From the NCBI GenBank assembly GCA_002841335.1, contig PHEY01000002.1:124001-188000 (forward strand): a DNA stretch of 64,000 nt, in the 5' to 3' direction. The first letter of the stretch is position 1. Every line of letters starts with the position of its first letter. The notes under the pieces are model-generated. The model worked only from the letters and a program-made list of their open reading frames with translations, ran no database searches and was not told the origin of the DNA. Both the position numbers and the translations under genes were made by a program. Shown here in pieces: positions 53,761-58,587 of the stretch. The stretch comes from Actinobacteria bacterium HGW-Actinobacteria-2 (GTDB lineage: Bacteria; Actinomycetota; Actinomycetes; Propionibacteriales; Propionibacteriaceae).

Positions 53761-54963
53761 TCAGTTGATGCCGACCCGATCCAGCGCGGCGCGGAGATCG
53801 GCGACCAGATCGGCGGGATCCTCCACCCCGATACTCAGCCGCAGCAGGCCGGCGGTGATTCCCGCAGCTGCCTGCAGATCGGCCGGCATCGCGGCATGGG
53901 TCATCGTCGCCGGGTGCGAGATCAGGGACTCCACTCCACCCAGACTCTCTGCCAGACAGAAGGTCTCCAAGCCCGCCACCAAGGTCGGGACGGCGTCGGC
54001 ATCGGCGAGTTCGAAAGAGACGATGGCACCGAAGCCGTCCTGTTGCCGAACGGCCAACTCGTGCTGTGGATGGCTCGCCAACCCCGGGTAGTGGACCTTG
54101 GCCACCGCCGGATGGGACGTGAGCAGCTCGACGATCTCCCGCGCACCGCGTTGGGCCGCTGACACCCGCAGATGCAGGGTCCGCAGGCCGCGCAGCGCGA
54201 GGAAGGAGTCGAAGGCGCCGCCGGTCACGCCCAGCGTGTTCGCCCACCAGCCCAGCTGTTCACTGACGGCCGCGTCAGCGGCCACGATCACCCCGGCGAC
54301 AACGTCGGAGTGGCCGTTGAGGTACTTGGTGGCCGAATGCACCACCACATCGGCTCCCCACTCGATCGGACGCTGCAGCACCGGGCTGGCGAAGGTGTTG
54401 TCGGCCACCACCAATGCACCGGCGGCATGGGCAGCTTCGGCGATGACGGCGATGTCGGCCAGTCGCAGCAGCGGGTTGGACGGGGTCTCCAGCCAGACCA
54501 CGTCGGCCCCGGCGGCGATCGCCGCGGTGGCGGCCTCGGTGTCGCTGAAGTCGACCAGACGCAGCTGCAGCCTTCCGGTGCGGGCCAGCGCGTCGAAGAG
54601 CCGCCACGATCCGCCGTAGCAGTCCGCAGGCGCCAGCAGGGTGCCGCCGGCCGGCAGCAGCGCGTGCAGCACGGTGGTGATCGCCCCCATGCCGGAGGCG
54701 GTCACCCAGCCGCCGGCGCCGCCTTCGAGGTCGGCGACCGCAGCAGCGAACAGGTCGCGGGTGGGATTCCCGGAACGGCTGTAGTCATAGTCGCCACGCT
54801 CACCGAATCCGGTGAAGGCGTAGGACGTGCTGAGGTAGAGCGGCGGGGTCACCGCGTGGTGGGTGGGGTCGGTCTCGATGCCGGCGCGCACCGCCCGGGT
54901 GGCCGGACGGGGACAGTGACTGCGATCGGAGCCGGAGTCGGCGCTCTCAGTGCGGGAGTTCAT
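53761..54963 (-). CDS. metB: Cystathionine gamma-synthase/gamma-lyase (PLP)
   Basis: 400 residues from ATG 54963. PLP-dependent Cys/Met metabolism enzyme with YDYSRSGNPTRDLFAAAVADLEGG, VWLETPSNPLLRLADI, VADNTFASPVLQRPIEWGADV and the Schiff-base Lys in VVHSATKYLNGHSDVVAG. Either forms cystathionine from O-acyl-homoserine and Cys, or cleaves it. A Met-rich leader ORF, able to pair with the metB start region, lies 113 bases upstream, which favours the synthase reading (Met biosynthesis). Confidence 0.9.
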   Translation of the reverse strand: MNSRTESADSGSDRSHCPRPATRAVRAGIETDPTHHAVTPPLYLSTSYAFTGFGERGDYDYSRSGNPTRDLFAAAVADLEGGAGGWVTASGMGAITTVLHALLPAGGTLLAPADCYGGSWRLFDALARTGRLQLRLVDFSDTEAATAAIAAGADVVWLETPSNPLLRLADIAVIAEAAHAAGALVVADNTFASPVLQRPIEWGADVVVHSATKYLNGHSDVVAGVIVAADAAVSEQLGWWANTLGVTGGAFDSFLALRGLRTLHLRVSAAQRGAREIVELLTSHPAVAKVHYPGLASHPQHELAVRQQDGFGAIVSFELADADAVPTLVAGLETFCLAESLGGVESLISHPATMTHAAMPADLQAAAGITAGLLRLSIGVEDPADLVADLRAALDRVGIN

Positions 54964-54964
54964 G

Positions 54965-54977
54965 GATGGTCCTTGCT
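54965..54977 (-). promoter_or_regulatory. Shared ribosome-binding element of metB
   Basis: Minus strand AGCAAGGACCATC just before ATG 54963. The identical 13-mer precedes ATG of the DUF4395 gene at 57192-57204. AAGGA is the Shine-Dalgarno core. Confidence 0.7.
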
Positions 54978-55076
54978 CGAAGCTGCGGATGGCGGGTTCT
55001 TCCGCTGACGGCTGATCGACGACACCTTGTTCGGTGCTGTCGGCTCGCTGCTCCTGTTCAGGGGCGAGGTGGCTCG

Positions 55077-55136
55077 TCAGCGGCTGAGCATTCGCGCACG
55101 CATGACCATCATGGTCAGTGAGCGCGGACGAGACAT
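55077..55136 (-). CDS. Leaderless Met-rich leader peptide upstream of metB
   Basis: A 19-codon ORF, MSRPRSLTMMVMRARMLSR: five Met in 19 residues (1, 9, 10, 12, 16). No Shine-Dalgarno; TACCCT with six bases before the ATG gives a leaderless start. The Met codons ATGATG (codons 9-10) plus GTC can pair with the metB start region (55104-55113 with 54961-54971). Not in frame with metB, 113 bases before it. Its logic fits translation attenuation by Met-tRNA supply. Confidence 0.68.
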   Translation of the reverse strand: MSRPRSLTMMVMRARMLSR

Positions 55137-55142
55137 GGCCAC

Positions 55143-55179
55143 AGGGTAGCAGCCGGGTGCGGCAAGGCGGCCGGCCGCC
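55143..55179 (-). promoter_or_regulatory. Promoter of the Met leader with upstream palindrome
   Basis: -10 TACCCT (minus strand, 55143-55148), six bases before ATG 55136. GGCGGCCGGCCGCC (55166-55179), a perfect 14-bp palindrome, overlaps the -35 area and could be an operator. No good -35 seen. Confidence 0.5.
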
Positions 55180-55251
55180 CAGACGGCGCCGGCGTTCCTG
55201 ACCACGGTGGGGACGTCCACGATTTCCTTCTGTCCTGGCGGTGGGGCCACC

Positions 55252-55281
55252 GGGGGCGTCCGGCCAGGATCGGACGCCCCC
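55252..55281 (-). terminator. Terminator of cysK operon
   Basis: Perfect 11-bp stem GGGGGCGTCCG/CGGACGCCCCC with an 8-base loop, 10 bases after the cysK stop. It isolates the metB leader unit from the cysK unit. Confidence 0.82.
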
Positions 55282-55290
55282 GCGGGCCAC

Positions 55291-56223
55291 TCAGTCGAGC
55301 AGGTCTGCGTACAGCGGGGTGGACAGGTAGCGCTCGCCCCAGTCGGGGGTGATCACCACGATGGTCTTGCCGGCATTGGCCGGGTCGGCGGCCAGTTCGG
55401 CCGCGGCCCGCAGGGCGGCACCCGAGGAGATGCCCAGCAGCAGACCCTCCTCCTTGGCGACGCGCTTGGCCCACTCGATCGCGTCGTCCCCGGACACCTT
55501 GATGATGCCGTCGACCACGCCGAGGTTGAGGATGGACGGGATGAAGCCAGGAGAAATGCCCTGGATCTTGTGCGGGCCCTTCGGCTCACCGGACAGCACT
55601 GCGGACTCGGCCGCCTCGACGGCGTAGATCTTCACCTCGGGCTTGTACTGCTTCAGCACGGTGCCGATGCCGGTGATGGTGCCACCGGTGCCGACGCCGG
55701 AGATGACGATGTCGACCTTGCCCTCAGTGTCGGCCCAGATCTCTTCGGCCGTGGTCTTCTTGTGGATCTCTACGTTGGCCTGGTTGTCGAACTGACGAGC
55801 CAAGATCGCACCCGGGGTGCTAGCGGCGATTTCGGCGGCGCGGGCGTTGGCGCCCGGCACACCTTCGGCGGCCGGGGTGAGGATGAGCTCGGCGCCGAGG
55901 GCGCGAAGTACGGCGCGACGCTCCTTGGAGAAGCTTTCGGGCAGGGTGATGATCACCTTGTAGCCCTTGGCCGCACCCACCCACGCCAGCGCGATCCCGG
56001 TGTTGCCGGAGGTGCCTTCGACGATAGTTCCGCCCGGCTGCAGCGAGCCGTCAGCCTCAGCGGCCTCGATGATGGCCACACCGATCCGGTCCTTCACCGA
56101 GTTGGCCGGGTTGTAGTACTCCAGCTTGGCCAGGACAGTGGCCTGGCTGTCGCCGTAGAGCCGGTTGATCTTCACCAGCGGGGTGCGACCAATGAGCTTG
56201 GTCGCGTCTTCGTAGTAGGTCAT
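55291..56223 (-). CDS. cysK: Cysteine synthase (O-acetylserine sulfhydrylase)
   Basis: 310 residues from ATG 56223. PLP-dependent replacement of acetate by sulfide. Motifs: IGRTPLVKINRL, LEYYNPANSVKDRIGVAII (PLP Lys in NSVKDR), VEGTSGNTGIALAWVGAAKGY (substrate loop) and SGVGTGGTITGIG. Cytoplasmic. Third gene after DUF4395 and thioredoxin-like; 76 bases separate it from the thioredoxin-like gene. Confidence 0.95.
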   Translation of the reverse strand: MTYYEDATKLIGRTPLVKINRLYGDSQATVLAKLEYYNPANSVKDRIGVAIIEAAEADGSLQPGGTIVEGTSGNTGIALAWVGAAKGYKVIITLPESFSKERRAVLRALGAELILTPAAEGVPGANARAAEIAASTPGAILARQFDNQANVEIHKKTTAEEIWADTEGKVDIVISGVGTGGTITGIGTVLKQYKPEVKIYAVEAAESAVLSGEPKGPHKIQGISPGFIPSILNLGVVDGIIKVSGDDAIEWAKRVAKEEGLLLGISSGAALRAAAELAADPANAGKTIVVITPDWGERYLSTPLYADLLD

Positions 56224-56299
56224 CGTGTGCCTCTCGCTCTTCCTGACTGTTGTTGAGTGCTGATAGTTGTCGTGTGGTTGTGTGCTGACTGGCGGACGC

Positions 56300-56722
56300 T
56301 CAAGCGGCCATCGGGCCGACCACCTGGCCGAGTGCGTCCAATACTTCGGGTTTGCGCGCGGCGCCGACGATGCGGTGCCGGACCGCGCCCGAGCCGTCCA
56401 GGACGAGGACGGTCGGGGTGCGGGTGATGCCGAACGCATCGACCAGGTCGAGGCGGGTCTCGGCGTCGATGTCGATGTGGGCCACTTCGGGACGGTCGGT
56501 GACCACCTCGGTGAGGACCCGGTGGGTGCTGCGGCAGGGGGCGCATACCGCTGCGGAGAACTGGACGAAGGTGGCCTGGGTGCCGAGTTCGGCGCCGAGG
56601 CGCTCGGCGTCCAGGCGGGCCGCGCGCCGCAACGTCCGCGCTCGTCCGTCGGTGAGCCGGCGGTAGCCGCCGAATCCGAGGGCGAGCACCAGCGCAGCGA
56701 GAACGACCCACAGACCGGTCAT
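56300..56722 (-). CDS. Membrane-anchored thioredoxin-like protein
   Basis: 140 residues. N-terminal hydrophobic anchor (about 3-20), linker, then a thioredoxin fold with active site CxxC in FSAAVCAPCRST, and ITRTPTVLVLDGSG with the cis-Pro. Probably a membrane-tethered reductant facing cytoplasm. Overlaps or lies within 2 bases of the DUF4395 gene, with which it may form a sulfur-transfer or redox pair. Confidence 0.85.
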   Translation of the reverse strand: MTGLWVVLAALVLALGFGGYRRLTDGRARTLRRAARLDAERLGAELGTQATFVQFSAAVCAPCRSTHRVLTEVVTDRPEVAHIDIDAETRLDLVDAFGITRTPTVLVLDGSGAVRHRIVGAARKPEVLDALGQVVGPMAA

Positions 56723-56723
56723 G

Positions 56724-57191
56724 TCAGGCCCCTTCCACCGTGGCGGGCTTGGCGAACAGCCGCTTGCCCAACAGGTACAGCTCGCAGCCCAAGCAGTAGT
56801 CGAACACCGCGTTGAGCAGTGCGGCCACCAGCGCGAACCCTGTCGCGATGTAGAACACCGTCGCGAGGCCAAACACTCCGCCGATCAGGCCGACCAGGGC
56901 GAAGCCGAGGCCGACAGCCTGCGCGAATCGCGGGGGCCGGGCGTCCTCCAGTTCGGCCGGTGGGGCCAGGCGCGGTCGGACGAACCTGCGGAAGACCCAG
57001 CCGTAGGGCTGATACCGGACGCCGAGGATGGCGCCGATGGCGAAGGCGATGGCCTGCAGGATCAGCAGCGGCAGTCCCCACTGGGGGCCGAGCGCCACGC
57101 TCGCGGCAAGCACCACCGAGGTGATGATCGCCGCGAAGCGTGGGCCGCGCGGATCCACCACCTCGGCGGTGGCGGGCGATGAAGCAGTCAT
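56724..57191 (-). CDS. DUF4395 membrane protein
   Basis: 155 residues, DUF4395: DPRGPRFAAIITSVVLAASVAL, a central four-helix membrane region, and C-terminal CLGC motif near the end (YCLGCELYLLGKRLF). Its partner is the thioredoxin-like gene directly downstream. Probably part of a sulfur/thiol pathway. Preceded by the shared AGCAAGGACCATC element and, further upstream, by a Cys-rich leader ORF. Confidence 0.82.
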   Translation of the reverse strand: MTASSPATAEVVDPRGPRFAAIITSVVLAASVALGPQWGLPLLILQAIAFAIGAILGVRYQPYGWVFRRFVRPRLAPPAELEDARPPRFAQAVGLGFALVGLIGGVFGLATVFYIATGFALVAALLNAVFDYCLGCELYLLGKRLFAKPATVEGA

Positions 57192-57204
57192 GATGGTCCT
57201 TGCT
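57192..57204 (-). promoter_or_regulatory. Shared ribosome-binding element of the DUF4395 gene
   Basis: Minus-strand AGCAAGGACCATC abutting ATG 57191, identical to the metB element. The extended CAGCAAGGACC is complementary, with two bulged As, to the Cys codons of the leader peptide. Confidence 0.7.
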
Positions 57205-57319
57205 GAATGGGTGGAACGGTGAGTGTGGTCTGGGGCCTGTGCCTCGGCGGATTGCCGGAGGGCTCGTCCGCGGGTCGGCATTACCGTGCGTCGCGGGCGT
57301 CAGTGGGCAGGCGGAGGCG

Positions 57320-57385
57320 TCAGCGACAACACATTCGCATCCGGCAGCAGGCCGGGCGAACAATCGTGTATACAGACGCGGACAT
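57320..57385 (-). CDS. Leaderless Cys-rich leader peptide upstream of DUF4395-trx-cysK
   Basis: A 21-codon ORF. It has four Cys as two pairs, Cys13-Cys14 (TGC TGC) and Cys19-Cys20 (TGT TGT), each pair flanked by Arg, the last codon being Arg21 before TGA. Leaderless: TAAGGT, six bases, ATG 57385. The codon 12-14 stretch, GGCCTGCTG at 57345-57353, can pair with the downstream ribosome-binding region CAGCAAGGACC (57195-57205). 128 bases lie between its stop and the DUF4395 start. Resembles the Cys-responsive leaderless attenuators of mycobacteria. Confidence 0.75.
   Translation of the reverse strand: MSASVYTIVRPACCRMRMCCR
57367..57374. promoter_or_regulatory. Palindrome TGTATACA, candidate GntR operator inside leader ORF
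   Basis: Perfect 8-bp palindrome over codons 4-7 of the Cys leader ORF, about 20 bases after the inferred transcription start. GntR/FadR-type regulators bind related TNGTATACNA sequences, and a GntR gene lies 113 bases away. Weak evidence: could be chance. Confidence 0.3.
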
Positions 57386-57391
57386 GTGCCT

Positions 57392-57397
57392 ACCTTA
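57392..57397 (-). promoter_or_regulatory. -10 element of Cys leader
   Basis: TAAGGT on the minus strand, six bases upstream of ATG 57385. Possible -35 GTGGAC 17 bases further upstream. Its spacing is the same as for the Met leader. Confidence 0.55.
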
Positions 57398-57497
57398 GCA
57401 GGGCGGGCGGGGATGTCCACTCCCCCAGGGCCGACTACGCCTCAATGCGTAGCCCGCACTCATCGTCGACGCAGGTTCCGGCGTCGGCGCGTCCCGA

Positions 57498-58511: not shown

Positions 58512-58587
58512 GGCCCCATAGCTCAGGGGATAGAGCAGAGGTTTCCTAAACCTTGTGTCGCAAGTTCGAATCTTGCTGGGGTCGCCA
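58512..58587 (+). tRNA. tRNA-Arg (anticodon CCT)
   Basis: Acceptor GGCCCCA with TGGGGTC (one G-T pair), D-arm GCTC/GAGC with AGGGGAT loop, anticodon stem AGGTT/AACCT with loop TTCCTAA (anticodon CCT), T-arm GCAAG-TTCGAAT-CTTGC, discriminator G and an encoded CCA (58585-58587). The accessory block starts immediately after it. Confidence 0.95.

Follow-up and report, generated by a model that had tools for sequence, protein, structure and literature searches.

Does the short, Met-rich open reading frame (ORF) ahead of metB in Actinobacteria bacterium HGW-Actinobacteria-2 act as a leader peptide through which the ribosome reads methionine supply? The ORF lies between cysK (56223..55291) and metB, on the minus strand of the window, the whole 64,000-nucleotide stretch of DNA that was analysed. 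The metB protein scores 527.7 bits against TIGR02080 (cut-off 504.55). Its product is cystathionine, a Met precursor; as the enzyme uses up Cys on the way to Met, control by Met would make biological sense. Met is also the amino acid with which translation itself starts, which makes it an awkward signal for a leader peptide, and its sensing by one a puzzle. The reading favored here, with a probability of roughly 60%, is that the metB leader represents a Met-responsive branch of a family of leaderless Cys attenuators, in which pausing at Met codons would open the metB ribosome-binding site (RBS). The features on which the argument draws are collected in Table 1; genomes and loci carry handles beginning with G and L.

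Table 1. Positions of genes, leaders and candidate RNA elements in the window.
Feature	Position	Strand	Remarks
metB, cystathionine gamma-synthase family	53761..54963	minus	TIGR02080 above cut-off, PF01053
metB RBS AAGGACCATC	54965..54974	minus	Shine-Dalgarno AAGGA plus complement of the anti-RBS
Element X GCCGTCAGCGGA	55001..55012	minus	12 nt, 37 nt ahead of metB; 3' strand of candidate helix P1 lies within
CCGCTGACG, 5' strand of candidate helix P1	55075..55083	minus	contains the leader stop codon; shuffle p 0.03 in G000
Met leader ORF MSRPRSLTMMVMRARMLSR	55077..55136	minus	ATG at 55136, TGA ends at 55077; kept in six genomes
Conserved leader end GCGAATG-N6-CGCTGA (R-M-x-x-R-stop)	55077..55095	minus	common to Cys and metN leaders
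GATGGTC, candidate anti-RBS	55104..55110	minus	Met codons 9-11; complement of metB RBS; weak support
TACCCT, -10-like box	55143..55148	minus	6 nt ahead of leader ATG, leaderless-type start; TAnnnT at 6-7 nt in 6/6 relatives
Strong inverted repeat GGGGGCGTCCG..CGGACGCCCCC	55252..55281	minus	3' of cysK, ahead of leader promoter; no T run; by eye
DUF4395 gene	56724..57191	minus	behind Cys leader
Cys leader MSASVYTIVRPACCRMRMCCR	57320..57385	minus	TAAGGT 6 nt ahead of ATG; upstream of DUF4395

The first-pass annotation had described an ORF with five Met in 19 codons, placed 113 nt before metB behind TACCCT, and this was confirmed on the minus strand: the Met codons are numbers 1, 9, 10, 12 and 16, and the 113 nt run from the leader stop to the metB ATG (54963). 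Its statement that the leader start has no Shine-Dalgarno sequence also held, the predicted start being of the leaderless type in all six genomes that carry the leader (in G017, GAGG occurs near the ATG). The metB gene itself has AAGGA six nt ahead of its start. ORFs of 12-40 amino acids that begin with ATG or GTG 5-8 nt behind a TAnnnT box number just five on both strands of the window; the Met and Cys leaders are two of these, with the most Met and the most Cys, respectively. The chance of at least four Met in 18 codons is 3.9 × 10−4 at an assumed Met rate of 2%, and 0.043 at the rate of the five window ORFs, in which the leaders themselves are included. Judged from sequence, conservation in six genomes is stronger evidence for the Met leader than these codon-chance figures.

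A consensus scan of 54900-57450 found no two-hexamer sigma-70-type promoter and no -35 box, so the leader promoter is predicted from the -10-like box alone. The inverted repeat behind cysK is probably a transcription end. The only intrinsic terminator site in 54900-57450 is on the plus strand, and a classical trp-type transcription attenuator was rejected, no terminator being found on the minus strand between the leader and metB. The missing minus-strand terminator also speaks against a rival reading, that leader translation is linked to transcription attenuation (with Rho or in another way) and not to control of translation initiation. Such attenuation would suit the 81-131 nt of poorly conserved RNA between the leader stop and metB in five genomes and a folding test that gave no consistent signal of RBS occlusion; it is nevertheless judged very unlikely. 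The only Rfam match at gathering score in the region is a tRNA (58512-58584), with no riboswitch or T-box, and a SAM riboswitch or T-box at metB was rejected on this basis; SAM and T-box families are also not among seven sub-threshold matches.

metB was sought in 30 genomes of the genus, and the upstream region of one locus per genome was read. The leader lies directly ahead of metB in five of them, G000, G017 (MSRPRPMAMMMVVRARMLSR), G005 (MPGTRMTMVVPAMPGRMRRR), G004 (MFIAHASAAMTAARRGRMRRR) and G010 (MFIAHANAAMLAAQRGRMRRR), and a sixth leader, MFAAPMTAMMAGLRARMRRR in G003, is found at a contig end, with 24 nt left after element X and metB on another contig. Each of the six has 2-5 Met beyond the start and zero Cys. 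Four are Met-rich, and those of G004 and G010 have one Met only besides the shared last Met. The ORF is thus kept in relatives, and the refutation that had been proposed for it, namely that it is not conserved, fails. The metB proteins of the leader-bearing genomes are 73-88% identical to that of the window. The leader-metB pair is located behind cysK in G000, G017, G004 and G010 and behind what are presumably pdxS/pdxT-like genes in G005, while in G003 two genes in reverse orientation stand between cysK and the leader.

The six metB leaders were used to build a covariance model (R1), which was run on 197 genomes of the family and matched 28 at E ≤ 0.5. The six source genomes score E ≤ 5.2 × 10−8, which is no independent test, the model being made from them, and the others score 0.012 or worse; three of these weaker matches are leaders of metN (G164, G184, G176), discussed below. 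Beyond these six, the 197 genomes give no strong match, and weak matches may escape the search. When 28 metB proteins were placed in a tree, the six leader genomes and G011 formed one group with support of 92/85, below the support mark of the tool; the leader trait requires two label changes on this tree, for which one gain and one loss suffice. A strict Met-leader pattern matches G000 alone among 296 genomes of the phylum, G000 being the sole family member there. The Cys/Met leader end, with one mismatch allowed, occurs in 8 of 391 genomes of the order, every one in the family. Looser forms would escape both patterns.

Other metB-like genes of the genus have upstream features of their own. 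The gene itself has a leaderless-type start, with TAnnnT 6-8 nt before the start codon, in 12 of 21 other loci checked (L007-L011, L017-L019, L021, L022, L024, L029). In G001 and G002 (L012, L014), a ten-codon ORF with two Cys (MSRCQIRCPK and MSRCPSRCTR) stands just before metB and is preceded by a purine-rich stretch; the stop codon of the G002 ORF shares bases with the metB start (ATGA).

The origin of the Met leader is suggested by its 3' end. Over their final 19 nt, the Met leader (GCGAATGCTCAGCCGCTGA) and the Cys leader at a distance of 2.2 kb (GCGAATGTGTTGTCGCTGA) are identical save for a six-nt middle, which reads TGT TGT (Cys Cys) in the Cys leader and CTC AGC in the Met leader. A search of the 197 family genomes for GCGAATG-N6-CGCTGA returned 40 places in 33 genomes, and the reversed control returned six. 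When 30 of the 40 places (L040-L069) were screened by script for short ORFs that are in frame and preceded by a -10-like box, ten had one: the six metB leaders and four metN leaders, one of the latter (L053, G045) counted only through a long TTG start. The remaining twenty are likely due to chance. The second places in G000 and G017 are Cys leaders of DUF4395 genes. When the 330 nt upstream of 20 DUF4395 loci were scanned without a filter, exactly one leaderless-type ORF was found in each of 14 (L158, L160-L171, L175) and none in the other six; among these is G017, where the contig ends too soon and the leader end is visible. In DUF4395 leaders, a Met is situated at, or near, the start of the Cys run. 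The Met leader would thus be akin to the Cys leader of the same genome, by a short end motif in the same register on which no tree can be built. G009 (L030) has TATATT and a further ORF, MSHQDCLCFARCGVTLMCLRMR, about 226 nt ahead of its match, a distant metB/metY-like gene; the peptide is Cys-rich with some Met, and the ORF contains the same GCGAATG.

The shared-end pattern also led to a third kind of leader, found ahead of metN (metNIQ) and carrying both Met and Cys codons. Orthologs of metN at E ≤ 1 × 10−95 are present in 44 of the 197 family genomes, and 30 of these loci were scanned with no Met or Cys filter. All twelve loci with at least 68% identity have a leader (L179-L185, L191-L195), and none of the other 18 scanned has one. 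Nine of the twelve follow the box rule; G111 has CAGACT (by eye), G016 is cut by the contig end and G045 has no clear box. In these leaders, as in VFTTACRLARLHTAAPAMMCMRMCCC, MM or LM comes before an end that resembles R-M-C. In G011 (L235, L181), metB lies behind metN, metI, metQ and another PLP-enzyme gene on one strand, with a Met+Cys leader heading metN, and such a metNIQ-metB arrangement is a possible source of the metB leader. A strong inverted repeat seen by eye after metQ could interrupt co-transcription with metB in this genome.

Codon content follows the gene that stands behind the leader: Cys for DUF4395, Met and Cys for metN, and Met for metB. The six metB leaders (115 codons) hold 15 Met outside the last and no Cys, and the run of Cys codons near the stop is absent from them; ten metN leaders (252 codons) hold 26 Met outside the last and 34 Cys, and fourteen DUF4395 leaders (323 codons) hold 3 and 52. 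The metN count omits G111 and G016 and includes G045, whose start is unsure, and four metN leaders were first found by a pattern or locus favoring the shared end. Fisher's test of metB against DUF4395 leaders gives p = 3.7 × 10−7 for Met and p = 5 × 10−8 for Cys, values that are overstated because relatives are counted as independent. A Met near the stop is common to all three kinds of leader and is therefore, alone, no evidence of Met sensing.

These likenesses suggest that the metB leader probably works like those of the Cys family and is descended from, or sister to, that family, with another amino acid as its signal. The Cys run that defines the family is missing from it, so that it does not qualify as a member, and its kinship is by the end motif. 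In evolutionary terms it would be a branch of the actinobacterial leaderless Cys attenuators that gave up its Cys codons for others and retained or gained Met codons. The wider proposal, that Met is read by codons and that an ancestral leaderless Cys or Met+Cys leader was re-tuned to give three sensors with one end motif (DUF4395 for Cys, metNIQ for Met and Cys, metB for Met), has about even odds of being right. The same replacement of TGT TGT, by CTC AGC or Arg codons, within a 3' end that matches Cys leaders could also be expected of a relic, that is, a Cys or Met+Cys leader that has lost its Cys codons and its function and is kept by chance or as a promoter only. The Met-poor leaders of G004 and G010 would fit such a relic. 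We consider it unlikely, as the ORF, the box, the leader end and X are all kept in six genomes in which the spacer is 47% identical and the metB proteins 73-88%. The conserved R-x-R-M-x-x-R peptide end also raises, by analogy, the idea of nascent-peptide arrest that senses S-adenosylmethionine, for which there is a precedent in the same enzyme, Arabidopsis CGS1, as outlined in PMC8137854. A similar end is present in DUF4395 Cys leaders, for which SAM would be an unexpected signal. Within the end, the two positions ahead of the last Arg vary, and G005 carries P in place of the R of the others; arrest of this type is highly improbable. For the favored Met-responsive attenuator, the RNA between the leader and metB remains to be considered.

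Two stretches stand out in the six-genome alignment (A3): the leader end (89% pairwise identity) and element X (GCCG(T/C)CAGCGGA, 92%), compared with 47% for the spacer between them, 51% for the stretch from X to the RBS and 54% for the opening portion of the leader. X is positioned 35-37 nt from the metB start in all five genomes with metB on the contig, while the distance from stop to X ranges from 33 to 83 nt. CCGCTGA in the leader end is complementary to TCAGCGG in X in five of the six genomes, and G005 has six pairs and an A-C; the extension of this helix (P1) varies. No covariation is found in P1 across the six genomes, and since its pairs are invariant this counts neither for nor against the helix; RNAalifold reports two pairs with double changes, in a poorly aligned flank. 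Compared with shuffled spacers, P1 as a contiguous helix gives p = 0.03 in G000 and p = 0.005 in G017, and 0.21-0.43 in the other four. The longest contiguous helix of the stop region reaches p < 0.05 in 2/6 metB, 3/14 DUF4395 (G004, G020, G016) and 1/9 metN leaders (G164), and the helices of the DUF4395 and metN leaders differ in sequence from that of metB. In the DUF4395 leaders of G004, G020 and G016 (L160, L162, L163), the complement is found 38-77 nt downstream (shuffle p ≤ 0.015). A stop-region complement as an exclusive mark of metB leaders was rejected, some DUF4395 and metN leaders having their own, and a stop-region helix may be a wider trait of these leaders. On the alignment, X with its complementarity to the stop region is, covariation apart, better conserved than the candidate anti-RBS pairing.

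That pairing was the switch proposed in the first-pass annotation, in which codons 9-11 pair with the metB RBS. The complementarity exists: GATGGTC (55110-55104) and GACCATC (54971-54965) can pair over their whole length, and a single bulge allows CATG to join the helix. Related forms are GATGGTT:GACCATC in G017, TGGTGGTTC:GGACCACCG in G005 and CGCGGG:CCCGTG in G004 and G010, where the pairing falls in other codons. Across the five genomes, matching each leader to its own RBS ranks first among 30 distinct assignments when judged by contiguous helix (4/120 permutations tie), and 8/120 permutations are equally good by duplex energy. Codon shuffling gives p values of 0.125 (G000), 0.167 (G017), 0.01 (G005), 0.284 (G004) and 0.199 (G010), and comparison of the leader:RBS duplex with shuffled leaders gives 0.03, 0.114, 0.524, 0.602 and 0.342 in the same order. 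Several leaders show a hairpin whose loop contains an ATG, but this candidate was dropped (codon-shuffle p 0.165, 0.048, 0.489, 0.156, 0.092 and 0.832). Complementarity of this kind, in GATGGTC:GACCATC and in the G005 pair, together with the suitability of ATG-rich RNA for a CAT-containing RBS, would also be expected if the leader RNA or ORF controls metB and its Met codons serve as nucleotides (ATG:CAT near the RBS) and not as sensors of Met-tRNA. This is unlikely, given codon-shuffle tests that are weak except in G005, the frequency of Met codons in metN leaders too, and leader:RBS duplexes no stronger than shuffled in any of four metN leaders tested.

For the preferred reading, in which Met-tRNA is sensed, the effect of a stalled ribosome was calculated in five metB leaders. 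A ribosome was masked codon by codon, and the energy needed to open the RBS was computed in each case. Masking at the Met codons of G000 shifts this energy by less than 1 kcal/mol. In G017, it falls by 1.3-1.5 kcal/mol at Met 7 and 9; in G005, it falls by 2.6 kcal/mol at Met 13 and does not fall at Met 6 or 8; and at the last Met of G004 and G010 it rises by about 3 kcal/mol. A simple anti-SD switch was set aside, the masking effect across the five leaders giving it no consistent support. Of the proposed switch, therefore, the complementarity with its bulged CATG stands, and support from shuffling and stalling across relatives is weak. The related claim, that the leader has the same design as the Cys leader tuned to Met, is borne out for the peptide and is only a possibility for the RNA, where the stalling calculation is inconsistent.

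The mechanism that we envisage would begin with a leaderless mRNA that starts at the leader ATG, from which a short Met-rich peptide would be translated ahead of metB. When charged elongator Met-tRNA is scarce, the ribosome would pause at the Met codons and cover leader RNA that otherwise pairs downstream; the metB RBS would then not be held closed, and metB would be translated. When Met is plentiful, the ribosome would run off, the stop region would pair with X, the RBS would probably be occupied by a portion of the leader, and metB expression would be low. In this scheme, we infer the transcription start, the translation, the Met sensing, the direction of the switch and the working helix. 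The Met-poor leaders of G004 and G010, the inconsistent stalling, a P1 helix without covariation and the missing -35 box were counted against the Met-responsive reading in arriving at its probability.

SAM riboswitches and Met T-boxes are the usual RNA controls of Met genes; unlike these, the metB leader would have its signal read by translation, and no Rfam family matches its region at gathering score, a tRNA apart. For many amino acids, leaders that are read by their codons are known. Within the open literature on Met leader peptides and leaderless attenuators, subscription papers lying mostly outside it, the titles and abstract openings listed name no bacterial Met-codon leader. Polycysteine leaderless sORF attenuators of mycobacteria have reportedly been described by Canestrari et al. 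2020. The uORF of M. tuberculosis metE is a different thing from the Met leader: as outlined in PMC11260477, it works together with a B12 riboswitch, and its candidate start codons are not ATG and are led by an SD sequence. The outline of SAM-II and metA in PMC9373788 describes no Met-codon leader. In Arabidopsis CGS1/MTO1, a peptide of the coding region senses SAM and mRNA decay follows, according to the summary in PMC8137854; the likeness is that expression of cystathionine gamma-synthase is set by ribosome behavior, and the difference is that CGS1 has no separate leader ORF.

Closer parallels are found in the Actinobacteria. Seliverstov et al. 2005 (PMC1262725) predict Cys leader peptides upstream of cys genes, also in Propionibacterium acnes, encoded by short ORFs in which runs of Cys lie near the stop; their abstracted account gives structures for Trp, Cys, Leu/Ilv and ileS, with none observed upstream of genes of other amino acid pathways. 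The metB leader resembles these Cys leaders as a short ORF upstream of a sulfur gene, and metB, a Met gene, falls outside the pathways named there. In the mycobacterial polycysteine leaderless sORF attenuators, ribosome passage through Cys codons is reported to set downstream expression, as outlined in PMC9031893 and PMC9094748, with a forerunner study in PMC4633059. Like them, the metB leader has a leaderless-type short ORF, a sulfur-metabolism target and codons of the relevant amino acid; unlike them, it has no Cys codons, has Met instead, and its target is metB. The Cys leader of the window is of the same general kind as the mycobacterial ones, likened by kind and not by homology, and the Met leader shares its 3' end. 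Together, the leaders of DUF4395, metN and metB can serve as a natural experiment on how the amino acid specificity of a leader shifts.
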